From a virus, in IMG/VR virus record IMGVR_UViG_3300009610_000082, positions 1 through 25,677 of that record: DNA of 25,677 nt; one strand, given 5' to 3'. A program made the translations under genes and the position numbers. Under the pieces are notes generated by a model that was not told where the DNA came from, searched no databases, and saw only the letters and a program-made list of their open reading frames with translations. Shown here piece by piece: positions 11,313 through 25,677 of the stretch. How positions within the stretch are numbered: position 1 is the stretch's first letter; every line of letters begins with the position of its first letter.

Positions 11313-12328
11313 TAAGCGCCAAGATATGGGTAGAAGTTGGTCTGCTCTGCTGGATCAAGGTCCATAGCACCAGCACGGGTGTTCGGACGAGCCGCAGCAC
11401 GCTGTTCTGGAGTCCAGTCCTTACGTGCCTCTACAGTGCGAGCCTCAGTTTCACCTTTATTCCTCTTGTAGAGCTTCATGGCCTCTTCCTCAATGGCCTT
11501 CTCCCCAGCACCCTTCATCTGAGCCCTTAATTTGTCGGCAATTGGCTTGTAGTCTGATCCTGGATCAAACCCTTCCGAATGCTGTATCGCATGTTGCATT
11601 TCATGGAGCAAAGTTGACCGAATGCTATCCTTGGGGTTCCTCACACCGATTTCCTGCTCGTAATCACCCGTAGCCTTGTTCAATTTGGACTTAAACACGC
11701 CTTCAGGTTTCACATCTGAGTTATGCAACTTGACTTTGTACTTCCGCATCTCAGGATATGCCTGGAAAAACTCAGGATGGTCGATTGCATCTTCCAAGTT
11801 ACCAGACCATGTCTTCTTCTTGCCAAAATCGGCCTTCACAACGGCCTTTGAGTCATCAATTTCCCACTTCATGTGCTGACTCTTGTAGTTCATACCACTG
11901 TATGGCTTCGAATTAGTGGGAGTATCCTGATACATACCCATTTCTTTCCAGACTGAGTCAGGACTGTCTTCAGGACCGCTTGCTCGCTTGAGCCTCTGCT
12001 CGGCTGCATCCATTGTAGCGCGCTTGCCAGGTACGTTCATGGCCCCTCTCGCCCCAGCAATCAACTCATTTGCTGGCTTACGCAGAGCCTTAACAAGTCT
12101 AGTACCTGGGATGAGGCCAGCAACGCCCTCGGCCAGTCCTGAAACGTCACCTTCATTCCACGCCCTCGCAATGTCCCTGCCTGCCATTGCTTGACCCACG
12201 CCGGGGGCCAGCCCGAGAATGCCCTGCGTTAGTGAGTCACCCCACCCTTCCTCAGGTTGCTGACTTAGTGATGTGTACTGATCAAACTTCCTACGAAGCA
12301 AGTCTGGTACATAGTCCATAACTGGCAT
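11312..12328 (-). CDS. Zincin-like (HEMQH) phage polyvalent-type protein
   Basis: A 338-residue protein. Residues about 238-254 contain T-L-L-H-E-M-Q-H-A-I-Q-H, an HExxH zinc-metallopeptidase motif (H242, E243, H246), followed about 45 residues later by G-E-T-E-A-R, which could provide the third metal ligand. This pairing is known from metallopeptidase-like domains in phage polyvalent proteins. The N-terminal 100 residues are glycine/alanine-rich with A-G-L-I-P-G-type turns, as seen in ejected or membrane-interacting virion proteins. It sits directly upstream of terL, where no capsid protease is otherwise visible. A prohead protease, an ejected protein or a tail-associated hydrolase are possible roles. 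Confidence 0.8.
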   Translation of the reverse strand: MPVMDYVPDLLRRKFDQYTSLSQQPEEGWGDSLTQGILGLAPGVGQAMAGRDIARAWNEGDVSGLAEGVAGLIPGTRLVKALRKPANELIAGARGAMNVPGKRATMDAAEQRLKRASGPEDSPDSVWKEMGMYQDTPTNSKPYSGMNYKSQHMKWEIDDSKAVVKADFGKKKTWSGNLEDAIDHPEFFQAYPEMRKYKVKLHNSDVKPEGVFKSKLNKATGDYEQEIGVRNPKDSIRSTLLHEMQHAIQHSEGFDPGSDYKPIADKLRAQMKGAGEKAIEEEAMKLYKRNKGETEARTVEARKDWTPEQRAAARPNTRAGAMDLDPAEQTNFYPYLGA

Positions 12329-14321: not shown

Positions 14322-14451
14322 GAGAAATCGTATGAATCGCCTGAGCCGGGTATCTTCCACTGAGAATGGGCATGTATGCATATACAGTAGCCTGAGAACC
14401 GCATGTATGCATATACTACGGTGTACCCCAAAACCTTGCGCCCGGGGGGTG
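14322..14451. repeat. Intergenic stretch with two 16-bp direct repeats
   Basis: GCATGTATGCATATAC occurs exactly at 14370-14385 and 14401-14416, a 31-bp period; CTGAGAA precedes both copies. The core TATGCATA is palindromic, so each copy could bind a dimer. The repeats sit upstream of the late promoter and just left of the CA/TG-free tract. A C/G-rich run follows at 14440-14460. No gene seen. Confidence 0.6.
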
Positions 14452-14465
14452 GCCCCGCCGCTTCG

Positions 14466-14535
14466 AGCCGACGAGCGGTTAACCCCTTAATTATAAAGGG
14501 AAAATTCTCTAAAACTAGCCGACGAACGGTTAACC
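14466..14535. repeat. 19-bp direct repeat pair around CCCTTAATT element
   Basis: AGCCGACGARCGGTTAACC occurs at 14466-14484 and 14517-14535 with one mismatch, 51 bp apart. Between them lies CCCTTAATTATAAAGGG, a stem-loop that resembles the CCCTTAATTCTAAAGG element at 16204-16219 upstream of the paralogous gene. The second repeat overlaps the -35 region of the promoter at 14554. Operator or origin function is possible. Confidence 0.6.
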
Positions 14536-14559
14536 TAGATTCTCTAGAGCGCGTATAAT
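14531..14559 (+). promoter_or_regulatory. Promoter for the CA/TG-free genes
   Basis: A perfect -10 TATAAT lies at 14554-14559, with TAACCT (14531-14536, 17-bp spacer) or TTAACC (18-bp spacer) as the -35. The layout copies that of the promoter at 16371-16399. A palindrome TAACTAG-6-CTAGTTA at 14576-14595 lies in the leader. Confidence 0.55.
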
Positions 14560-14627
14560 CTCTATATCGGATAGGTAACTAGATACCTCTAGTTAGTAAC
14601 CCTAGGCCCGATACTTAGGAGAGATCT

Positions 14628-15017
14628 ATTAAGAAAACGCCCGCTCCCGTTTCTAAGTCCGGCCCTCGCTTCGCGAAGGTTAACGGAGTCGCTCGCGAGT
14701 TCGGCGAGAGGAATCCCCTTAAGGGTAATAAAGCTACCCGAAAGGCTACTCTAGTTCCTTCCGGCGTCGAGGTCGACGTAGTTATTATCGCGGCTAGAGA
14801 GTTCGCGGAAAATCGGATTTGGGTTAAGCTCCCGTCCGGAGTCGTAGGTAGAATCCTCGTACCTTCCGGAGTCGATCTTTCCGGAAAGCTCGAAATCGAG
14901 GAAGTTCTCGGTTCGATCCGGTACGAGCGAGAGCGTCTACGCCCGCCGATCCCGCGTAAGCGCGCCGATAGCCCGGTAGTCCCGGACGAAGTTAAGAAGG
15001 ACGCTTCCGAAGTTTAA
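14628..15017 (+). CDS. CA/TG-free paralogue of the 16447 protein, no NTG start (ATT proposed)
   Basis: A 129-residue open frame with no ATG, GTG, TTG or CTG anywhere in frame. AGGAGAG at 14617-14623 precedes ATT at 14628, and an in-frame TAG at 14616 rules out a longer frame. The product aligns with the 16447-16935 protein from V-N-G onward: V-V-I-I-A-A-R-E-F-A-E-N-R-I-W-V-K-L-P against V-V-I-I-P-A-R-E-F-A-D-T-R-V-W-I-Q-L-P, then G-S-I-R-Y-E-R-E against G-S-I-K-Y-E-R-E. It has no Cys, His, Met or Gln and a single Trp. Function unknown, as for its homologue: small, beta-rich centre, basic ends. The frame is intact and homology strongly supports translation; the ATT start is inferred by alignment with the homologue's ATG. 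Confidence 0.75.
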   Translation: MKKTPAPVSKSGPRFAKVNGVAREFGERNPLKGNKATRKATLVPSGVEVDVVIIAAREFAENRIWVKLPSGVVGRILVPSGVDLSGKLEIEEVLGSIRYERERLRPPIPRKRADSPVVPDEVKKDASEV

Positions 15018-15026
15018 CTAGAGAGG

Positions 15027-15050
15027 CTAGCCCGGCGAAAGCCGGGCTAG
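15027..15050 (+). terminator. Hairpin after the first CA/TG-free gene
   Basis: CTAGCCCGGC-GAAA-GCCGGGCTAG: a perfect 10-bp stem closed by a GAAA tetraloop, ten bases after the stop. No T-run follows (AAAGAAAA), so it may be a processing or stability hairpin rather than a strong terminator. Confidence 0.6.
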
Positions 15051-15057
15051 AAAGAAA

Positions 15058-15207
15058 ATAGATATTACCTATAGAATCCCGATCGGCCCCTTCGAGCTAG
15101 ACGTTCTCGTAAACCTCGGTTCGATAGTTACGGTTCTCCCGAACGGCGAGCGGATCGTTCTAGACTTTATCCCGGACGAAGCGCCGACCGCCGCGACGCT
15201 TAACTAG
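15058..15207 (+). CDS. Second CA/TG-free small open frame (ATA or ATT start)
   Basis: A 49-residue frame without any NTG codon, ending at TAG 15205-15207. Candidate starts are ATA at 15058 or ATT at 15064; the upstream sequence GAAAGAAAA is purine-rich but not a strong ribosome-binding site. The product begins I-D-I-T-Y-R, which resembles M-Q-I-T-F-K of the minus-strand gene at 15717, and both have a C-T-A-G followed by purines and AATA in front. The rest contains V-T-V-L-P-N-G-E-R-I-V-L-D-F-I-P, a small beta-like pattern. It is followed at once by a terminator hairpin. Small size and lack of a standard start make it less certain than the first frame. Confidence 0.5.
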   Translation: MDITYRIPIGPFELDVLVNLGSIVTVLPNGERIVLDFIPDEAPTAATLN

Positions 15208-15212
15208 AAAGG

Positions 15213-15239
15213 CTAGCCCCGAAAGGGGCTAGATTTTCT
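15213..15239 (+). terminator. Rho-independent-type terminator
   Basis: CTAGCCCC-GAAA-GGGGCTAG at 15213-15232 followed by ATTTTCT. Same CTAG edges and GAAA loop as the hairpin at 15027, but with a T-tract, so this probably ends the transcript from 14554. Confidence 0.75.
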
Positions 15240-15249
15240 CGCCCGCCGC

Positions 15250-15433
15250 CACAGCCGCAGGCCAGCCAACCCAGCCGCAGGCTCACTTCCAGTCTCACTC
15301 CCGCACTGAACTTCACTGTGGCCACCACTGAACTCCACTGGGCACGGATGGTCCACTGACATCGTGGGGTCACTTGCTGGCGGCCACGGTCACCGGTGGT
15401 CCACTGGATTTCAGTGAGGGCGGCGGGGCCGCA
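15250..15433 (+). repeat. CACTG array 1
   Basis: No gene seen. CACTG starts at 15304, 15314, 15326, 15336, 15354 and 15402, with variants CACTT at 15284 and CACTC at 15296 and a reverse copy CAGTG at 15412. Several are spaced by 10 or 12 bp, one helical turn. CAGCCGCAGGC also occurs twice at the left end. The array starts right where the CA-free tract stops. Confidence 0.8.
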
Positions 15434-15439
15434 GCCCCG
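15424..15439 (-). terminator. Possible terminator of the minus-strand 90-residue gene
   Basis: CGGGGC-CGCA-GCCCCG forms a six-base-pair stem with a four-base loop, five bases beyond the stop codon of the minus-strand gene. The stem is GC-rich, but no T-run follows on the minus strand. Confidence 0.35.
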
Positions 15440-15444
15440 TCCTG

Positions 15445-15717
15445 CTAGTAGACCTCGGCGGGCTTGTGATCGCCCGAAGTGGAGAGGATAAGCTTGGCGA
15501 GCGCCTTCCCGACGAGCGCTGTATTAAAGATGTCGAGGGCGACGAATAGCTCGTGTTCCTCGGCTTCCGTAAGCTGACGCTCGACGCCCGTGTCCGGCTC
15601 GTATATCTTGAGCTTATCGACGCCGTTAAGCTGGTTATACTTGAGCGTCGGGAAGTCGAGGATGACTCGGCTACCCTCGTTGGCGAGAAGTCGTACGTCC
15701 TTGAAAGTAATCTGCAT
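15445..15717 (-). CDS. Small unknown protein, coding strand lacks TG except its start
   Basis: A 90-residue protein with an ATG at 15717 preceded by AGAGGA. Start M-Q-I-T-F-K-D-V-R-L-L, then R-V-I-L-D-F-P, a charged middle with E-R-Q-L-T-E-A-E-E-H-E, and a helical C-terminus (A-L-V-G-K-A-L-A-K-L-I-L). No domain recognised; possibly a small regulator, lying between two CACTG arrays and convergent to the CA/TG-free genes. In the coding strand TG occurs only in the ATG, whereas CA is frequent. Early orientation opposite to its neighbours suggests separate regulation. Confidence 0.75.
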   Translation of the reverse strand: MQITFKDVRLLANEGSRVILDFPTLKYNQLNGVDKLKIYEPDTGVERQLTEAEEHELFVALDIFNTALVGKALAKLILSTSGDHKPAEVY

Positions 15718-15796: not shown

Positions 15797-16020
15797 CAAT
15801 GCTAGCATTGAATACCGGCATTAATAATGTCGTGCTGACACTGAAATTCATTGACCCGCATTGAAGTTCACTGACCCGGGCACTGAAGTTCACTGCTGGG
15901 GTCACTGAGGCCCACTGGCGCCAGGCGTGGTCCACTGCCATTCCACGGGCACTGTACTTCACTGTTGGCCAGGCCTTGAGAGCATGGTCCACGGGGGAGG
16001 ATGCTCCACGGGGCACCTGA
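15797..16020 (+). repeat. CACTG array 2
   Basis: No gene seen. CACTG or CATTG starts at 15806, 15839, 15849, 15859, 15869, 15881, 15891, 15903, 15913, 15933, 15950 and 15960, all in the plus orientation. Start-to-start distances are mostly 10 or 12 bp. The paired unit CACTGAANTTCACTG is repeated. It lies upstream of the minus-strand gene's promoter. Confidence 0.85.
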
Positions 16021-16048
16021 AATCCGATGTACGGTCTTTACTTTCCAG

Positions 16049-16330
16049 AGGTAACGGTAACGGTCTCGGCCTATTGTTTACTCGGCGATTTTAGGGGGGG
16101 TCGATCCCTGAATGGGGGTGTTCTGACCAGCTCGACCCCCTACCCGCGTAAAACTGTCTTTAATGTAACCGTTACCCGTTACCCGTAACCTTCCAGTTGT
16201 AAGCCCTTAATTCTAAAGGCTTTTCAGGAGTAACGGCCCGGCTGATTTTAATTTGTTAGGCGTTACCCGTTACCCTGAAACCGAACGACCGTTCTCCAAG
16301 ACCAAGAAGCGAACGCTCGTACGCCGTTAC
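16049..16330. repeat. GTTAC(C) iteron cluster, candidate origin/operator
   Basis: CGTTAC(C) or its complement occurs at 16049-16063 (twice), 16165-16190 (GTAACC, GTTACCC twice, GTAACC), 16229-16235, 16261-16275 (twice) and 16324-16330. A hairpin with the CCCTTAATTCTAAAGG element and a following TTTT lies at 16201-16224. A TTTACT box at 16037-16042 has no matching -10. No open frame is supported in 16021-16370. Confidence 0.65.
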
Positions 16331-16370
16331 CTTTTCCTCAAACGATTTCACTGTAATCAGATGAAAGTAG

Positions 16371-16424
16371 TAGACGGCACTAGTGTTTTCGGCTATAATA
16401 CTAACACTAGAGCGCCGCTCTAGT
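16371..16424 (+). promoter_or_regulatory. Early promoter with start-site palindrome
   Basis: TAGACG at 16371-16376, 17-bp spacer, TATAAT at 16394-16399. A palindrome ACTAGAGCG-C-CGCTCTAGT (16406-16424) covers the likely start of the transcript and could be an operator or a stabilising 5' hairpin. A copy of this promoter design is found at 22096-22124. Confidence 0.7.
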
Positions 16425-16446
16425 TCACTAGTCAAGGAGATTCAAG

Positions 16447-16935
16447 ATGGGCAAGAAAGCGAAGTACGACACGGATGTCACGGATACTCCGCAAAACGTA
16501 GCGACAGTGGCCGAAAACAACGAAGTCGATGTCCCCAAGGAGCCCAAAGCTCCCAAGCTCAACTACCACCTGGAGGTCAACGGCCAGCCTCGGCTCTTCG
16601 CCAAGAGGGATTGGCTCAAGCGGGAGCACCCGACAGTCCCCGCGACAGTCGAGTACAACGGCCAAGTCGAGGAAACGATAGTGGTTATCATCCCCGCCCG
16701 CGAGTTTGCTGACACTCGCGTCTGGATCCAACTCCCGAATGGAGACGCTGGCCGCTTCCTGGTCCCAGCGAGCGAGCTGGACCTCACGATCCAAATGAAC
16801 ATTAAGATCGTGGAGGGCTCGATCAAGTACGAGCGTGAGGTTCTGCGCGTCCGTCCGAAGGTTGAGCGCAAGAAGAAGGACACCGGTATCCCAGCTGAGG
16901 GCACCGAACCGGCACCTGAGACCCAACCGCAGTAA
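16447..16935 (+). CDS. First early protein, unknown function
   Basis: A 162-residue protein with AAGGAG seven bases before the ATG. The N-terminal 40 residues are charged and polar, the middle (about 45-135) contains L-E-V-N-G-Q-P-R-L-F-A-K-R-D-W-L-K-R, V-V-I-I-P-A-R-E-F-A-D-T-R-V-W and G-S-I-K-Y-E-R-E, and the C-terminus is basic then E/P/T-rich. The centre looks like a small beta-barrel; DNA or RNA binding is possible but not shown. It has a CA/TG-free paralogue at 14628-15017. Being first after a strong promoter and followed by a strong terminator, it is likely expressed early and abundantly. Confidence 0.85.
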   Translation: MGKKAKYDTDVTDTPQNVATVAENNEVDVPKEPKAPKLNYHLEVNGQPRLFAKRDWLKREHPTVPATVEYNGQVEETIVVIIPAREFADTRVWIQLPNGDAGRFLVPASELDLTIQMNIKIVEGSIKYEREVLRVRPKVERKKKDTGIPAEGTEPAPETQPQ

Positions 16936-17096: not shown

Positions 17097-17495
17097 ATGG
17101 GACTTAAGATGAAGGATTTGGTAAACCGTGTGAACACTTCTACCCCTGAGAATTATATCTTGGCGGTGGCGAAGCTGGTAACAATGAAGCCGCGAGTGAA
17201 GCCTGACGACTTGAAGGCGACGGCGATGGCCTTGTACTCGCGCTTCTGTTCCCCCCGTGGCCGTCGTGACGACGTGATCGAGCCGGTGAACGTGTGGCTT
17301 GACGGACTGAGGCCTGCTACCGTGGCCGCCTGGCAACGTGTTCTAGATGAGAACCCTGACGTAGGCGCGTGGGATCCCCGCGAAGTGTACAACGAAACGG
17401 GTTGGGCCCATGACGTAATCGCTGCTAGAGCCGCTGTCGATGCGAGCCGGGTGGTTATGGAGCGTCTGATGTATGGTAAGGTGAACACCTACTAG
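17097..17495 (+). CDS. Small early protein, unknown
   Basis: A 132-residue protein with AAGGAG eight bases before the ATG. It appears alpha-helical and basic in the first half (K-P-R-V-K-P-D-D-L-K-A-T-A-M-A-L-Y), with W-L-D-G-L-R-P-A-T-V-A-A-W-Q-R-V-L in the middle and a helical C-terminus. No family recognised. Own promoter and following hairpins suggest a separate transcription unit. Confidence 0.75.
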   Translation: MGLKMKDLVNRVNTSTPENYILAVAKLVTMKPRVKPDDLKATAMALYSRFCSPRGRRDDVIEPVNVWLDGLRPATVAAWQRVLDENPDVGAWDPREVYNETGWAHDVIAARAAVDASRVVMERLMYGKVNTY

Positions 17496-17508
17496 GAGCT
17501 GGCCACGT

Positions 17509-17550
17509 AGGACGCCTGCTCAAGCGGGCGTCCTGCGGGGAATGTTCCCC
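17509..17550 (+). terminator. Double hairpin between small early genes
   Basis: AGGACGCC...GGCGTCCT at 17509-17534 forms a 12-bp stem including one T-G pair; GGGGA-ATGT-TCCCC follows at 17537-17550. No T-run; may attenuate or process the message before the next ribosome-binding site. Confidence 0.5.
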
Positions 17551-17570
17551 AACTTAAAGCTGGAGCTTAA

Positions 17571-17834
17571 ATGATCAGAAATAAAGATGGTCGCTGGAAC
17601 GCTGGATCGTCAGATCTGAAGGCGTTCATGAATCTCTCTCCACGAAATAAGTGGCCGAAGGATGGCCTCCCACCGCGTATGATACAGGGCTGGTTAGTGT
17701 GGGTGGCTCCCCTCTCCAGCGATTCGCGTGATAATCACCGCCGTATTCACCGCGTCCGTGCTAAGTGCCCGAACTGCTCGCAAGTTATGAGCGCTGGACG
17801 TACCCACCAACACCGCTGCGTAAAGGCTGCGTAA
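17571..17834 (+). CDS. Small zinc-ribbon-like protein
   Basis: An 87-residue basic protein. The C-terminus has C-P-N-C followed after 9 residues by H-Q-H-R-C, a likely zinc-binding site, preceded by R-I-H-R-V-R-A-K. The N-terminus has G-R-W-N-A-G-S and repeated W residues. Phage proteins of this type are common in early regions and could bind nucleic acid; role unknown. TGGAG lies six bases before the ATG. The stop TAA is directly followed by the ATG of the next gene. Confidence 0.75.
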   Translation: MIRNKDGRWNAGSSDLKAFMNLSPRNKWPKDGLPPRMIQGWLVWVAPLSSDSRDNHRRIHRVRAKCPNCSQVMSAGRTHQHRCVKAA

Positions 17835-18032
17835 ATGACTATCCGACCTGAGATCCTAGAGCTGGACAAGAAGTTCAATGACTGGTGGGTTAAGGTGGAC
17901 ATCGCCCTCGTGAATATCTGCGGTATGGGCGTTGAAGACCTCCCTGACTACTGCTACCGCGATGCGTTTAACGCTGGCGAAAGCCCCCGCGCTGTCGCTC
18001 GGGCGGTGATCGCTGCTGCCAAGGACTACTGA
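17835..18032 (+). CDS. Small early protein, unknown
   Basis: A 65-residue helical protein (L-E-L-D-K-K-F-N-D-W-W, Y-C-Y-R-D-A-F-N-A-G, A-V-A-R-A-V-I-A-A-A-K). Pattern of a 'Y-R-D-A-F...G' followed by an alanine-rich helix is common in small phage proteins of unknown role. AAAGG lies upstream and the start directly follows the previous stop, so translation is probably coupled. Confidence 0.7.
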   Translation: MTIRPEILELDKKFNDWWVKVDIALVNICGMGVEDLPDYCYRDAFNAGESPRAVARAVIAAAKDY

Positions 18033-18034
18033 AA

Positions 18035-18346
18035 ATGCGCGGAATACATATAGGATCAAAGATTTACTGGAACGTGGGAACCGAAGCCACTCCCGAAGTG
18101 AGGAATGGAACGGTGACGCGAATCAGTGGGAAGTCTGGAGATGTATATGGCCGGACGTTGTTCGTGGATAATGCCCACAAGCCCGAGGACTGTATCTATG
18201 AGGTGTGGTGCTATCCTGAGGCCTATGCCGCTGAGTACGTGAATATCCTGAACCACCGGGCGAAACTGAAGAAAGACCTGGATGATTCGATGAAGTTGAT
18301 CTATGAACTCTGTAATAAGATGACCCGTGAGAACCCTGAGACTTGA
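18035..18346 (+). CDS. Small early protein, unknown
   Basis: A 103-residue protein. The first 60 residues look like a small beta-barrel of KOW/SH3 type (G-S-K-I-Y-W-N-V-G, N-G-T-V-T-R-I-S-G, Y-E-V-W), followed by a charged helix (H-R-A-K-L-K-K-D-L-D-D). The start lies two bases after the previous stop; AAGGA is present upstream at long spacing. No name assigned. Confidence 0.7.
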   Translation: MRGIHIGSKIYWNVGTEATPEVRNGTVTRISGKSGDVYGRTLFVDNAHKPEDCIYEVWCYPEAYAAEYVNILNHRAKLKKDLDDSMKLIYELCNKMTRENPET

Positions 18347-18374
18347 AGCCTGAAACTATCGACTGAAATCGTAT

Positions 18375-18412
18375 GTCTACCCCTAGACGGAGCACTTGTT
18401 TAGGGGTAGACT
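18375..18412 (+). promoter_or_regulatory. Promoter inside an 11-bp inverted repeat
   Basis: TAGACG at 18384-18389, 17-bp spacer, TAGACT at 18407-18412. The arms GTCTACCCCTA (18375-18385) and TAGGGGTAGAC (18401-18411) overlap both promoter boxes, so this could be an operator, or a hairpin ending the upstream message. Confidence 0.55.
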
Positions 18413-18446
18413 ATCTAGTAGTCCCCTTAACCAGAAAAGGAAACAA

Positions 18447-18653
18447 ATGACCACTTACTATCTCCAAGAAGGTGTTACGGACAGCGACCGTTTTGAGGTC
18501 AAGGTGCTGAAGTCCCACGTCTGTCTTCGCGGCCCGCGTGTGTTCCTCGATGACTACCTCCACGGGACCAAGGCCGAACCCTCCAAGCTCCTCCGTACCA
18601 TCGAAGCCCCGACTTGGCTCGCCGCCCGCGCCAAGCTCCCCAGCTACTTCTAA
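18447..18653 (+). CDS. Small early protein, unknown
   Basis: A 68-residue protein; ATG at 18447 with AAAAGGA upstream. Sequence is beta then helix (F-E-V-K-V-L-K-S-H-V-C-L, then T-W-L-A-A-R-A-K-L). No family recognised. Flanked by its own promoter and a strong hairpin. Confidence 0.7.
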   Translation: MTTYYLQEGVTDSDRFEVKVLKSHVCLRGPRVFLDDYLHGTKAEPSKLLRTIEAPTWLAARAKLPSYF

Positions 18654-18659
18654 CCCACT

Positions 18660-18685
18660 TCCTCCCCGCCCCAGGGCGGGGAGGA
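18660..18685 (+). terminator. GC-rich hairpin
   Basis: TCCTCCCCGCCC-CA-GGGCGGGGAGGA, a 12-bp perfect stem (effective loop of four) seven bases after the stop, without a T-run. May be terminator-like or a message-stabilising hairpin. Confidence 0.6.
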
Positions 18686-18701
18686 CACTTAAGGAGTGAA
18701 G

Positions 18702-18908
18702 ATGTCCGAACAAGACTACGCGTTGCGCCAGAAGAACCTGCGCCTGACGCTTGCTAACCTGGCGATCCTCCGCTGTGAGGTGGAGAAGCTAGCACTGAAC
18801 GCTCCCGCTGGTCTCTCGGAGCGTGCGTCCTACCAGGACGCGAACCTGGAACTCGGCCGTGCCGAGCTGGTACTTATGGAAGAACTGAACGAGGACTATA
18901 ACATATGA
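18702..18908 (+). CDS. Small early protein, helical
   Basis: A 68-residue protein; ATG at 18702 with AAGGAG upstream. Predicted long alpha-helices (L-T-L-A-N-L-A-I-L-R-C-E-V-E-K-L-A-L; L-E-L-G-R-A-E-L-V-L-M-E-E-L), perhaps a helical hairpin or coiled coil. Its stop overlaps the next ATG (ATGA). Confidence 0.7.
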   Translation: MSEQDYALRQKNLRLTLANLAILRCEVEKLALNAPAGLSERASYQDANLELGRAELVLMEELNEDYNI

Positions 18909-19108
18909 AGGTGATCCGCCGCTCTCCATTCTCCGGACAGGAGAATACGATGGACCTGGACATTACGCCCGCCCAGCTCGACCGCTGGAAAGAGGGCGCG
19001 TTGATCCAGAACGTGTTCCCCCACCTCTCCCCTGACGAGCGGGAGTTTCTGATGACAGGTATTACCTCCACGGAGTGGGCCGAAATGTTTAAGAAAGGTG
19101 AAGCATAA
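18905..19108 (+). CDS. Small conserved phage protein (I-x-L-D-R-W type)
   Basis: A 67-residue protein, coupled to the previous stop. A second in-frame ATG at 18950 has AGGAG seven bases upstream and would give a 52-residue product starting M-D-L-D-I-T-P-A-Q-L; that may be the main start. The core (I-T-P-A-Q-L-D-R-W, L-I-Q-N-V-F-P-H-L-S, D-E-R-E-F-L-M-T-G-I-T, E-W) is a pattern seen in many small phage and bacterial proteins with no known function. Confidence 0.75.
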   Translation: MKVIRRSPFSGQENTMDLDITPAQLDRWKEGALIQNVFPHLSPDEREFLMTGITSTEWAEMFKKGEA

Positions 19109-19570
19109 ATGGCTACTTATCATGATCGTCGAATGAAGTGTCTCGAAGACATCTCCCGGGGGATGTACGAGCCGTTTGCCCAGGCTCTAGTCGATGTGTC
19201 TATGCTCCCCGTGGCCCCGCAGTGGGTCGATGTATTCGCGGCTGCGCTGACCTATAAGCGCCTGATGCAAGCGAAAGCTGAGACCGCTGAGGACTTGGTC
19301 TATTCGATGCGTCCCGAAACCTATGACAAGTGGGAGAAGGAGCTGTCTACCGTCCGGTCAGATAATAAGTGGTATCGCGATGGTAACAAGGATGGCTACA
19401 CGATGGGTGGCTATAAGATTCTGTCCCTCCCATCCGCCGAGGCCGCTGAGTCCCGTAGCTTCATGGCTCAGGAAATCCTCGCTCTGCGTAAGGCGGCTCA
19501 GGAGGCTGATTATAAGTTGTGGGAGGCGCTGCGCTCGCTGTACGAGTTGAACGAAGCGACACTGCGATGA
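19109..19570 (+). CDS. Early protein, unknown
   Basis: A 153-residue protein, mostly helical with W, Y and charged residues (Y-D-K-W-E-K-E-L, W-Y-R-D-G-N-K-D-G-Y). AAAGGTG upstream; directly follows the previous TAA. Its stop overlaps the next gene's ATG. No family recognised. Confidence 0.7.
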   Translation: MATYHDRRMKCLEDISRGMYEPFAQALVDVSMLPVAPQWVDVFAAALTYKRLMQAKAETAEDLVYSMRPETYDKWEKELSTVRSDNKWYRDGNKDGYTMGGYKILSLPSAEAAESRSFMAQEILALRKAAQEADYKLWEALRSLYELNEATLR

Positions 19571-19892: not shown

Positions 19893-21995
19893 ATGGCCTT
19901 CGGAACAGTGCTAAACTTCGGCCCAGCGAAGCCTCTGTTAGAGGTTTACAATGAATATCGTGAGCCACGTGGTCTAACCGATGATATAATTGACGCTATG
20001 GGAGCGTCAGTTATGACATTGGAGGAGGCTGGTAAGAAGCCTGGAATTGGCTTCGGGATAACAGGACATAAGGCTAATGGAGCCATCGGCGCAATCGTCT
20101 ACCCCATTAGCCCAGAACAGAGCGCCTGGCAAGCTAGACTCCTGTACGACATGGGTCGTATCGACACCACTCCTGGAGTAGGTGAAACTAAGCCCAGGAA
20201 GTTACAGAAATACTATGTCCCACGAAACTCCATTAACCATCTGTATATTCCTCCACTACTTACAGATTGGTGGGACCCAGATAACAGATACGATCTGCTA
20301 ATCGTTGAAGGTGCGCTAAACGCTGCGCGTCTAGCATCGGCAGGGTTTCGCGCTGTGAGCATAACCGGCGTGTACAACTACCATATATCAGGTAAGACTT
20401 CCCCCATTATACCAGAGCTGATACGTTTTGGTCGAGCCCCCAATGTTATAGACATCTATTCCATGTTCGATTCGGATACAGGTAATCCGGATGCAGATCG
20501 CGGGCTGTACAACGCGACGAACATGTTTATGCAAGACATTATGTCCATTCGTAAGGACAGAAAGAATACTGTATTCATTTGTCGTCCTCCATCGAATCCA
20601 GATGGGAGCAAGAACGGCCCAGATGACTATCTCCATAAGGCAGGGATAGATGAGTTTCGTCGGCTGATACGACAGGAGAAACTTCAGTATAACGACCATC
20701 CATACTTCGAGTTTGAACGGCGAGCATCCGACCAGTACATACTAGAGCAGATGTCCGGTTCGTTGTGGGACTGTTCGCTTCGTGCCCTTGTATCAGTTAA
20801 ACACGCTAATCTTGAACTCTCGTCATGGGGAGAGGTCAATGATATAATGGCAAAGATGCCTAAGCGCATCGCCTTTACTGTAGATAGAGTAATGCGAACA
20901 GGTACTATACGCAAGGCTCGCGGTGTAATGATGAATCCCTCCACTAGTGAGCCATTCTTCCTCGATGAGAAAGCTGATCCACCACAATGGCGGATTAACA
21001 AGTTTAATCCAGACGATGTACCAAAGGCTATCAAAGGTGATATATCCATAGTACACGAAGTCCTTGCGTCTATCAATCGTTCCTCTCCATCCGCCACGGC
21101 TAAGATGTTAACCATCTGGGCCTATCATGCTCAAAATCCATCTCTTACTCCCAAGTATGCCAACCTAATCACTGGTGAGCCTGGTTGTGGTAAGTCAACC
21201 TTAGCCCGCCTTGTGGGGCTGTCCCTATCCAAGAAATTCACTGATATTAATGTAGACTTTAAGTCTGGATTCTCGGGCACATGGAGAGGCTTCGCCTGTA
21301 AAGAATGGGCCGAATTTCAGAAAGAGATGGACCCAGAGTGGCTCAAGAATTTAATCACTTCCCACTCCTACGAAGTGGATAACAAGTATGGGGCCAAGTA
21401 CGTCGAGCCAAATCATACGCTGAACATATTCACTTGTAACGGACTTCAGAGTAAGATACAGGAGGGTGATAGACGGTTCGTGATTAGTGGCTATGGGAGG
21501 GCGGACAATAAAGAGCTGGGACTTGAGTTCGAACGTCAAGTGGGAACAACTATGGCTCCTGGCTTACTTACCAATTACTTCAGATTCTTCCTGCTTAACT
21601 ATGACGCATCCGGCTATGATACAATGGATGTATGGACGGAGATGAGGGACGAGGTGATCGACTCTTCCAAGTCATATAAGACATCAGTCAAAGACTTGAT
21701 CAAAGAAGAACTGGATATGATGCCAGAGTTAGAATGTCCTTCCAATGCTTTACTACAAGTCTTGCTCGATCCCTACAAAGTAAACTTGATCTCATTCCTT
21801 GCAGAGAATGGTCAGCATTTCATTAAGCCACCAATTAAGTTAGTCAAGATTAACGGACATCCTTACAAGTTTACGGCTCACAAGAACCACGAAAAGTGGA
21901 GAAAGGAGATGAACACCGACGAGTACAGGGAACAGTTTAAGTTAAGTGAGAAGTTTCTGAAAATGACTCAATCTCATGGAAAGCTAGATCAATGA
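19893..21995 (+). CDS. TOPRIM primase - SF3-like helicase fusion
   Basis: A 700-residue protein. An N-terminal TOPRIM-type domain is seen at about residues 130-200: L-L-I-V-E-G-A-L-N-A at 134-143 carries the catalytic glutamate, and S-M-F-D-S-D at about 190-195 the acidic pair. The C-terminal ATPase has Walker A G-E-P-G-C-G-K-S-T at 428-436, a W-A-E-F-Q segment near 471 as Walker B, T-C-N-G-L-Q sensor-like and D-R-R-F-V-I near 525. This looks like a helicase of the phage DUF5906/SF3 group. No N-terminal zinc finger is apparent. It would unwind DNA and lay primers at the fork with the polymerase encoded downstream. AAGGA lies upstream. Confidence 0.9.
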   Translation: MAFGTVLNFGPAKPLLEVYNEYREPRGLTDDIIDAMGASVMTLEEAGKKPGIGFGITGHKANGAIGAIVYPISPEQSAWQARLLYDMGRIDTTPGVGETKPRKLQKYYVPRNSINHLYIPPLLTDWWDPDNRYDLLIVEGALNAARLASAGFRAVSITGVYNYHISGKTSPIIPELIRFGRAPNVIDIYSMFDSDTGNPDADRGLYNATNMFMQDIMSIRKDRKNTVFICRPPSNPDGSKNGPDDYLHKAGIDEFRRLIRQEKLQYNDHPYFEFERRASDQYILEQMSGSLWDCSLRALVSVKHANLELSSWGEVNDIMAKMPKRIAFTVDRVMRTGTIRKARGVMMNPSTSEPFFLDEKADPPQWRINKFNPDDVPKAIKGDISIVHEVLASINRSSPSATAKMLTIWAYHAQNPSLTPKYANLITGEPGCGKSTLARLVGLSLSKKFTDINVDFKSGFSGTWRGFACKEWAEFQKEMDPEWLKNLITSHSYEVDNKYGAKYVEPNHTLNIFTCNGLQSKIQEGDRRFVISGYGRADNKELGLEFERQVGTTMAPGLLTNYFRFFLLNYDASGYDTMDVWTEMRDEVIDSSKSYKTSVKDLIKEELDMMPELECPSNALLQVLLDPYKVNLISFLAENGQHFIKPPIKLVKINGHPYKFTAHKNHEKWRKEMNTDEYREQFKLSEKFLKMTQSHGKLDQ

Positions 21996-22177: not shown

Positions 22178-22678
22178 ATGGAAGCAGAAGGACAGGGGTA
22201 CGTAAATCAAGATGGGGATCAAGAGGTCGAGCTAATCAGAGAGCTAGTCGACATCAAATCAGACCTCGTATCAGAGGCTCTCGCACTCTTCGAGAGACAA
22301 GTTCTAAGCCACAAGGAAATCCTCCACGAGGCACGAGTTTTCGTGCGTATCGCGGAGGAGGCACAGGCCAAGTTCGGCGGCGAGGTGCGCCTCATGACGT
22401 GGATGGGCGTAGCCAAGGCGCTACTCACGATAGACGTCAAGGACTTCAAGGAGGCGACGCCGGTCATTGAGTGGCTAGAGGAAGTAGCACACCTCAAGTG
22501 CAACGAGACCAACGACTCAACGTGGTTCGGACCAGGCGCCCGTAATTTCAGCTTCGGACCATCCTTCCAGCTTACCGCCGACCTCACGAAAGACGCCACC
22601 TGTAAGAAAGTCATCGTGGGGTACGAGGCAGTTGAGCCGCGAGCCATCTACGAGTTCAAATGTACGGAGGCACAATGA
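22178..22678 (+). CDS. Early protein, unknown
   Basis: A 166-residue acidic protein. First half helical and E/L/K-rich (V-E-L-I-R-E-L-V-D-I-K-S-D-L), then W-M-G-V-A-K-A-L-L and a C-terminal beta-rich part (F-S-F-G-P-S-F-Q-L, V-I-V-G-Y-E). CAGGAG lies seven bases before the ATG. Its stop overlaps the next ATG. No family recognised. Confidence 0.75.
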   Translation: MEAEGQGYVNQDGDQEVELIRELVDIKSDLVSEALALFERQVLSHKEILHEARVFVRIAEEAQAKFGGEVRLMTWMGVAKALLTIDVKDFKEATPVIEWLEEVAHLKCNETNDSTWFGPGARNFSFGPSFQLTADLTKDATCKKVIVGYEAVEPRAIYEFKCTEAQ

Positions 22679-24036: not shown

Positions 24037-25677
24037 ATGGACTTACCTGTAGTAATCGACTTTGAGACCGAGGCCATTGCGCCTTGGCCTCAATATCCGC
24101 CTAAACCAGTGGGCGTAAGCATCTGGTATCCACAGGCTGAGAAACCAGTCTACTTAGGTTGGGGACATCCGAGTGAAAATAACTCTACATTTGAAGAAGC
24201 GCGCAACGCCCTCAGTGCAATCTGGGGACACGAGCTACTGTTCCATTACTCTAGGTTTGACACGGAAGTTGCTCGTGTTCATATGGGTCTGCCCTTTCCG
24301 CATGACCCGCTGCGAGTCCACGATACCCTTTTTCTCAATTACCTGTACGATGTCCACGCGCCGAGTCTATCGCTGAAGCCCAGCGCTGAACGCATACTAG
24401 GTATACCACCTGACGAGAAGGACACACTCGATGCTTGGCTCAAAGCTCATAACCTGCGACCGGGAGCTGATATATGTAAAGCCCCTGGAGATTTGGTGGG
24501 GACATATGCCAACGGGGACACGTTTCGTACCCGCAAGCTGTATGAAGCGTTGCTCGATCACGTCAACAAGACGGGTATGCTCGCTGCCTACCGACGGGAA
24601 CAATGCTTATCTCCTATACTTGCGCAATCTGAAGCCGACGGACTCCGTGTTGACAGAATCAAACTTCAATCGGACTTACCAAGCTATGAAGCAGCGTTCG
24701 TGGAGGCTACAAATAGGCTCCTGGGACTCATAGGGCCGTGCAACCCCGACTCCAGTGCGGAGCTAGCTCGTGCTCTCCTGAAGTCGGGGATGGCCCACGA
24801 GGCTGACTTCCTCCTCACTCCGACGGGGAAGCTGGCCACGAATAAGCAGAGTATGGATCAGGCGATCAAGGATCCAGTCCTACGGAATCTGATCTCTTAT
24901 CGCAGCGCTTTCAAGACCATCCTCGGTACATTTATGCGTCCGTGGATCGAATTCAGTAAGCACGACGGACGCCTGAGGCCTCAGTGGAATCAGGTTAAAG
25001 GTGAAGAATATGGAACAAGAACCGGACGACTCAGCTCCAACGACCCTAACTTCCAGAACGTCCCAACCGAGTTCAAGCTCTCCCCACCGGCGGGCTTGCC
25101 AGCGTTGCCTATGTTACGTCAGTATGTACTCCCCGATGAAGGCCACGTGCTCGTCGCTTCAGACTTCAACGGACAAGAGATGCGAATTGCTGCACATTTC
25201 GCAGAGGGACGGGCCGCTGAAATTTACCGAGATGACCCTAGAGCCGACTTCCATGAGGTCGTCAATGAGATCATTAAGCGGGACGCTGGCATGGACATCG
25301 GGCGGAAGATGGTCAAAATCACCGGCTTCTCGCTGATCTACGGCTCAGGTGTAAAGAGCCTCAGCGAGCTGCTGGGCGTTGACCGAGCGACCGCTGCGCG
25401 TATTCGCTCCCACTACTTCGCAGCGCTACCAGGATTCGAGGAGCTGATGTCGGCAGTAAGCAGCCGAGGCCGTGCTGGCTCCCCCGTCAAGACCTGGGGC
25501 GGGAGACTCATCTATTCCGAGCCTTCAAAGATCATTAAAGGTAGGCATATGGAGTTTAGCTACAAGCTCCTCAACTACTTGATCCAGGGTAGCGCTGCAG
25601 ACCAAACTAAGGAGGCCATCAATGTCGCTGGCTACAAGACTCGCGGGCGCAGGTTTCTGGTTACGGTGCACGACGAA
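24037..25677 (+). CDS. DNA polymerase, family A with 3'-5' exonuclease (partial)
   Basis: 547 codons are visible; the frame is open at the window end. Exonuclease: V-I-D-F-E-T-E at residues 6-12 (D8, E10), then F-H-Y-S-R-F-D, then G-T-Y-A-N-G-D as motif III. Polymerase: motif A V-A-S-D-F-N-G-Q-E-M-R (D376), where the usual Y-S-Q-I-E is F-N-G-Q-E; motif B R423-x3-K427-x7-Y435-G436; and the motif C V-H-D-E, with which the window ends exactly. No 5' nuclease domain. AAGGAAG precedes the ATG. It works with the TOPRIM-helicase and SSB-like proteins as a small replisome. Only the last part after motif C is missing. Confidence 0.95.
   Translation, partial: MDLPVVIDFETEAIAPWPQYPPKPVGVSIWYPQAEKPVYLGWGHPSENNSTFEEARNALSAIWGHELLFHYSRFDTEVARVHMGLPFPHDPLRVHDTLFLNYLYDVHAPSLSLKPSAERILGIPPDEKDTLDAWLKAHNLRPGADICKAPGDLVGTYANGDTFRTRKLYEALLDHVNKTGMLAAYRREQCLSPILAQSEADGLRVDRIKLQSDLPSYEAAFVEATNRLLGLIGPCNPDSSAELARALLKSGMAHEADFLLTPTGKLATNKQSMDQAIKDPVLRNLISYRSAFKTILGTFMRPWIEFSKHDGRLRPQWNQVKGEEYGTRTGRLSSNDPNFQNVPTEFKLSPPAGLPALPMLRQYVLPDEGHVLVASDFNGQEMRIAAHFAEGRAAEIYRDDPRADFHEVVNEIIKRDAGMDIGRKMVKITGFSLIYGSGVKSLSELLGVDRATAARIRSHYFAALPGFEELMSAVSSRGRAGSPVKTWGGRLIYSEPSKIIKGRHMEFSYKLLNYLIQGSAADQTKEAINVAGYKTRGRRFLVTVHDE

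Follow-up and report, generated by a model that had tools for sequence, protein, structure and literature searches.

How does a gene begin when no NTG codon is available to it, and what has emptied the DNA around it of TG? An earlier note on this viral DNA had pointed out two intact genes without an NTG start, lying in a tract from which TG is excluded. We refer to the whole stretch of 25,677 nucleotides that was analysed as the window; it is a fragment, with its right end inside polA.

A first early unit without CA, and a gene with a probable ATT start

The exclusion proved to be wider than the earlier note had stated. TG is indeed nearly gone from positions 14430-15249 (3 observed versus 47 expected), but CA is missing more strictly (0 versus 55), and the exclusion of CA reaches a log10 p of about -12 in the best 400-bp interval of the window. 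There is no TG between 14451 and 15306 save the one at 14820, inside the single Trp codon of the first gene, ORF1. In the same tract TA (66/43, observed/expected) and CG (95/60) exceed expectation, and there is no shortage of TC or GA. A sigma70-like promoter, ORF1, a possible second frame (ORF2) and an intrinsic terminator lie within the tract, whose end comes about 10 bases past the terminator; it is the first early promoter-gene-terminator unit, and TG is absent from its template strand (CA from its sense strand). Early expression of this unit is what its map position and promoter type would predict. The features of the region are as follows; the upstream motif copy comes from a motif scan, the Shine-Dalgarno site, hairpin and terminator were read from the sequence, the promoter from the sequence and from comparison with relatives and phage BUCT555, and the polymerase gene from its translation.

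14430-15249, no strand assigned: CA-free tract, the first early transcription unit including promoter and terminator; TG-free from 14451 except at 14820
14466-14484, plus strand: early-promoter motif, upstream copy, GCCGACGAGCGGT (19-nt repeat D9)
14517-14535, plus strand: early-promoter motif GCCGACGAACGGT, which most tract-bearing relatives also have ahead of their first early gene
14530-14559, plus strand: sigma70-like promoter, TTAACC-18-TATAAT
14617-14623, plus strand: Shine-Dalgarno site AGGAGAG
14628-15017, plus strand: ORF1, 129 codons, ATT start, TAA stop; no CA, one TG (Trp)
15021-15050, plus strand: hairpin region after ORF1, GGCTAGCCCGGCGAAAGCCGGGCTAG, without a T run
15058-15207, plus strand: possible ORF2, start ATA (15058) or ATT (15064); a candidate only
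15213-15240, plus strand: intrinsic terminator, CTAGCCCC-GAAA-GGGGCTAG-ATTTTCT
15445-15717, minus strand: ATG-started gene, sense strand poor in TG (1/15) with CA kept (16/17); the plus strand is CA-free
16447-16935, plus strand: paralogue of ORF1 with an ATG start and normal CA (35/39), an internal control
17097-19570, plus strand: the early genes that come next, CA-depleted to a graded extent (rho 0.3-0.7; TG 1.2-1.6), normal again by 20 kb
24037-25677, plus strand: gene for a PolA-type DNA polymerase, truncated at the contig end

Both the TG and the CA of TTGACA are lacking from the -35 hexamer of the promoter, TTAACC; in phage BUCT555 the motif GCCGACGAACGGT stands before TTGACA-TACAAT promoters. 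Motif and promoter were interpreted by eye. The position of this motif directly upstream of early promoters is common to the window and BUCT555, a Stenotrophomonas phage annotated with an adenylosuccinate synthetase, and sites, some differing by one base, occur at 14466 and 14517 of the window and at 1637, 1975, 3867 and 38137 of the related locus L103.

The start of ORF1 is in the register that had been described: AGGAG (14617-14621) stands six bases before ATT (14628-14630), an in-frame TAG lies upstream at 14616-14618, and the frame is open over 14619-15017. ORF1 contains no in-frame NTG; the sole NTG triplet in 14451-15305 is an out-of-frame TTG at 14819, which overlaps its only Trp codon, and TG is kept there because a Trp codon cannot be written without it. 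That this frame is a real gene is borne out by 48% identity over 104 residues to the ATG-started paralogue (MGKK...) at 16447, and ORF1 is also 36% identical to the first gene of the related virus G005. Its open frame of 132 codons was reached in only 1 of 2000 dinucleotide-preserving shuffles, synonymous shuffling gives z scores of -4.8 for CA and -5.3 for TG, and a single TA falls in the first two codon positions. The ORF1 product has no Pfam or PHROG match, and comparison of an AlphaFold model of the first protein (pLDDT 83) with PDB and viral folds gave nothing significant.

ATT is a poor start codon. With a good Shine-Dalgarno site before it, AUU would be a weak but workable start, and we infer that ORF1 is translated from it; this agrees with the suggestion in the earlier note that the phage may tolerate weak starts, ORF1 offering nothing else than ATT behind that site. 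Two further suggestions, altered initiation and a non-standard initiator tRNA, found no support: ARAGORN detected no tRNA in the window, nor in eight relatives represented by 16 pieces, fragments among them; NTG starts are present in the remaining genes of the window; and in most relatives the ATG is nearly the only TG in an otherwise CA- and TG-free first gene. In infC, too, AUU is the start codon, and there it serves the autoregulation of IF3. The likeness lies in an ATT behind a good Shine-Dalgarno site; the difference is that the ATT of ORF1 appears forced by the exclusion of TG, with nothing pointing to regulation by IF3. We therefore regard the missing NTG start as collateral, a by-product of the exclusion of TG and CA. 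A ban on start codons was rejected as the cause of the tract, because CA is banned more widely than TG. A short TG- and CA-free frame in the related locus L049 (reverse, 11334-11531) has the arrangement AGGAG-6-ATTAAG, like that of ORF1, its length being not significant.

The second frame is also without NTG, but its description as an intact gene is unproven: its length was reached in 345 of 2000 shuffles, the Shine-Dalgarno site before it is a weak one, and the loci compared yielded no homologue, for which reasons we leave ORF2 as a candidate.

Past the terminator, a second CA-free stretch (15433-15714) coincides with the minus-strand gene at 15445, whose sole sense-strand TG is its ATG and whose strand bias is thus opposite to that of the rest of the zone; a gene at 9912 of the relative G010 likewise has a sense strand in which TG is avoided but CA is not. 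The depleted zone is broken by two CA-rich arrays, at 15250-15432 and 15797-16046. These arrays are non-coding, rich in CACTG/CAGTG and partly inverted repeats, and they flank gene 15445; the first is also without TA, the longest TA gap in the window. Iteron-like GTAACGG/CCGTTAC repeats follow at 16047-16440, other short repeats occupy the same place in relatives, and the repeats in the window are a possible replication origin. Further right, an early gene at 22178-22678 is depleted of TG (15/31) and raised in CA (42/29) relative to synonymous expectation.

Conservation of the exclusion in related viruses

Searches with TerL yielded more than 100 related viral loci, in which the tract was judged where the divergent early region was present. 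The same exclusion stands at the same place in nine virus groups (G003, G005, G008, G010, L045, L049, L081, L101 and L117), and nothing comparable occurs elsewhere in them. L101 runs for 1451 bp without a single CA. Over the twelve first-unit genes of nine genomes, sense-strand CA occurs 4 times in 1452 codons and is missing in all three codon phases, on which ground codon-level causes (tRNA loss, avoidance of Gln or His) were rejected. Avoidance of primase sites was also set aside, since a trinucleotide rule would not remove every CA.

The fate of TG in the sense strand differs among these viruses. It is almost absent in the window, L081, L049-A and L101, is confined almost wholly to Met, Trp and Cys codons in the first unit of G010, and is normal or mildly low in G003, G005, G008, L045 and gene 1 of L049. 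The shared rule is a sense strand without CA, that is, a template strand without TG, with gene 15445 as an exception. The CA-free zone of G008 and L045 is bounded by promoter and terminator, the DNA upstream being normal; in the window, G003, G010, G005, L049 and L101 it extends into upstream non-coding, partly iteron-like DNA. In several genomes depletion fades over the 2-5 kb past the first unit. None of the cultured relatives found by DNA and protein search carries the tract, and a search for prophage relatives in bacterial genomes found none. The contigs of G003, L003, L004 and L036-L039 have their start or their end in or close to the CA-free tract, and the ends of the G003 contig overlap with poor G runs.

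The first genes of the window, G003, G005, G008, G010, L045, L049 and G009 appear to encode members of a single small protein family, several of the links resting on weak alignments, and the unrelated helical proteins of L101 and L117 obey the same CA rule. In the window, G003 and L049 the first copy of the family is CA-free and a later copy in the same genome is CA-normal. The exclusion follows position, not protein family.

It is also under continuing selection. Orthologues of the L081 first gene, 72.5-97.5% identical, differ by 21-29 synonymous codons, many of the differences being transversions, and all keep one CA (in a His codon) and one TG (the ATG). Of the possible synonymous changes 44% would create CA or TG, and random redrawing of the differing codons gives P values of 6e-4 to 5e-5; since the exclusion has been kept through 21-29 synonymous changes, selection is ongoing. 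TA is raised in the window, G010, L081 and L101. The lost words were replaced by CG and not TA in G008, G005 and L045, and by TA and not CG in L101, so that no single type of mutation explains the tract; deamination or RIP-like mutation was rejected on this replacement pattern.

Hypermodification genes and a proposed role for the tract

Several relatives carry genes of thymidine hypermodification. Pfam searches identified in G003 HMUDK_hel, which is the helical domain of the 5-hydroxymethyl-dU (5-hmdU) DNA kinase (E 1e-37), the kinase itself, an ADDT (amino acid:DNA transferase) and a thymidylate-synthase homologue, and in G010, whose TerL is 89% identical to that of the window, ADDT, the kinase and a cut HMUDK_hel. 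HMUDK components are present in G010, G003 and G005, and ADDT is over the cut-off in G003, G010, G014 and G031. The same families, namely HMUDK_hel, HMUDK_HMUD1, ADDT and the thymidylate-synthase homologue, belong to the hypermodification systems of phages M6, ViI and phiW-14. The 25.7-kb window, which stops inside polA, contains no HMUDK, ADDT or thymidylate-synthase family gene; in G003, G008 and G010 the hypermodification genes come after polA, and the virus of the window would be predicted to have its own there.

All seven tract-bearing records that include the modification region have HMUDK_hel. Conversely, the tract is present in 7 of 14 HMUDK-positive records versus 0 of 13 HMUDK-negative ones (Fisher P 0.004), a comparison from which the window, G013 and G015 were left out as their contigs end before the expected cluster, and which gives P 0.08 if these three are counted as lacking HMUDK.

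Published work bears on both the target and the consequence of such modification. The resistant sites of T-hypermodified phages contain TG or TC, and TG is modified by the kinase of M6 (PMC6449724; PMC7653180). A kinase-phosphorylated template supports 37% of normal transcription by E. coli RNA polymerase (PMC6457204). With T7 RNA polymerase, T residues of the promoter that carry bulky or charged groups inhibit transcription when they lie in the template strand, and mostly do not when they lie in the opposite one (PMC11550810). TG, a published target in the M6/ViI/phiW-14 system, is the word avoided in the tract; as TG and CA are avoided and TC and GA are not, we predict that modification in this clade is of TG only.

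We consider it likely that the tract is an immediate-early island exempt from the phage's own hypermodification, which lets the host RNA polymerase start the infection. These phages would replace thymine by 5-hydroxymethyluracil, and the DNA kinase with follow-on enzymes would hang bulky groups on the T of TpG. DNA entering a new host would then carry a bulky group at TG and be a poor template for the host RNA polymerase, which may be why the first promoter, gene or genes and terminator are kept without template-strand TG (CA in the sense strand). Some lineages would clear the non-template strand as well, and in the window the -35 would have become TTAACC and the ATG start ATT. If the island is DNA in which the phage cannot tolerate modification when it enters the host, its strand rule, its clean promoter and its early position would all be accounted for. 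The replication genes further right in the window are CA-normal and must also be transcribed, so something must help the polymerase later; the island product is a candidate, and may help it to read the modified remainder of the genome. For the fuller proposal, that the virus exempts its start-up operon by a ban on the target dinucleotide, mainly in the template strand, and that the product then licenses the polymerase, we judge the chances to be slightly better than even.

We stress that several observations count against the island reading: the seven HMUDK-positive relatives without the tract, M6, gene 15445, the CA-rich arrays and the CA-normal replication genes. In three of the seven the small first-gene module is missing, and G031 has an orthologue of the L081 first gene with normal CA. 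Pseudomonas phage M6, which is known to be T-hypermodified, has no tract: no target-free gap was seen in it, whereas the tract-bearing phages have such a gap and avoid only TG, not TC. We found no report of a target-free gap in the literature on T-hypermodified phages.

If the proposal is true, the ban bootstraps infection with the host polymerase and has reshaped a promoter, protein composition and a start codon, and the modification specificity of a phage can be read from raw sequence. It would point to a sequence-level answer to how an unmodified host polymerase reads the first genes of a phage with bulky bases, and the tract would be a case in nature of AUU apparently taking the place of AUG.

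Alternative explanations and known systems

The main rival to the island reading is that CpA is kept out of the first mRNA because a CpA-cutting ribonuclease, of host defence or of phage host shut-off, would otherwise attack it, by a logic like that of ACA-less mRNA and MazF; the first product may neutralise this ribonuclease. It would account for a first-unit sense strand nearly without CA, whichever the direction of the gene, and for an effect that fades along the early operon. It does not account for upstream DNA outside the first transcript, which is depleted of CA and often TG in G010, G003, L101 and part of the window, for the loss of TG and CA from the promoter -35, or for the avoidance of UpG, and it does not predict the association with HMUDK. 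Nothing fitting was found in the literature on CpA-specific ribonucleases, we know of no CpA-cutting ribonuclease of such a kind, and we think this explanation improbable. In the engineered MazF single-protein system an mRNA is likewise rewritten without one short word, but at the level of RNA; the tract is natural, concerns a two-base word and reaches promoter DNA. A host defence reading CA/TG in DNA (restriction, nicking or a CRISPR PAM), dodged until the first gene disables it, in the way that T5 and T7 evade restriction, appears less probable still, in spite of the early placement of the tract and the clearing of both strands in the window, L081 and L101: a double-strand target would clear both strands, yet only sense-strand CA is cleared in G003, G005, G008, L045 and gene 1 of L049, and CA and TG abound in the remainder of the genome. 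To our knowledge no two-base defence target of such a kind has been described.

Two other readings were weighed. Loss of CA and TG by mutation, for instance cytosine deamination at CpA, in a gene that simply survives it, would raise TA as in the window, G010, L081 and L101, but seems to us the most implausible of all, given the CG that replaced the lost words in G008, G005 and L045 against the TA in L101, the many transversions between orthologues, the untouched later paralogues of the same genomes and an ATG that became ATT, not ATA. That ORF1 is not translated from its ATT, being a decaying duplicate or a recombination reserve whose job is done by the gene at 16447, is unlikely, though it deserves more weight than the preceding readings; the poor start codon and the ATG-started paralogue speak for it. 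Against it stand some 130 stop-free codons in TA-rich DNA (1 in 2000) with one TA in the first two codon positions, a Shine-Dalgarno site in register, the Trp codon kept as the only TG, and homologous first genes elsewhere that keep their ATG.

The island reading has a parallel in T5 and T7, whose early regions are reportedly without restriction sites: in both cases the DNA that acts first offers an enzyme no target before early products have come into play. The enzyme belongs to the host in T5 and T7. In the tract it would seem to be the modification enzyme of the phage itself whose target is missing, chiefly from the template strand that is transcribed. Finally, Pelagibacter phage Lederberg (L106) has 579 bp without CC at 20277-20856, over its first rightward genes (E 2e-5), which is perhaps another dinucleotide exclusion in early genes.
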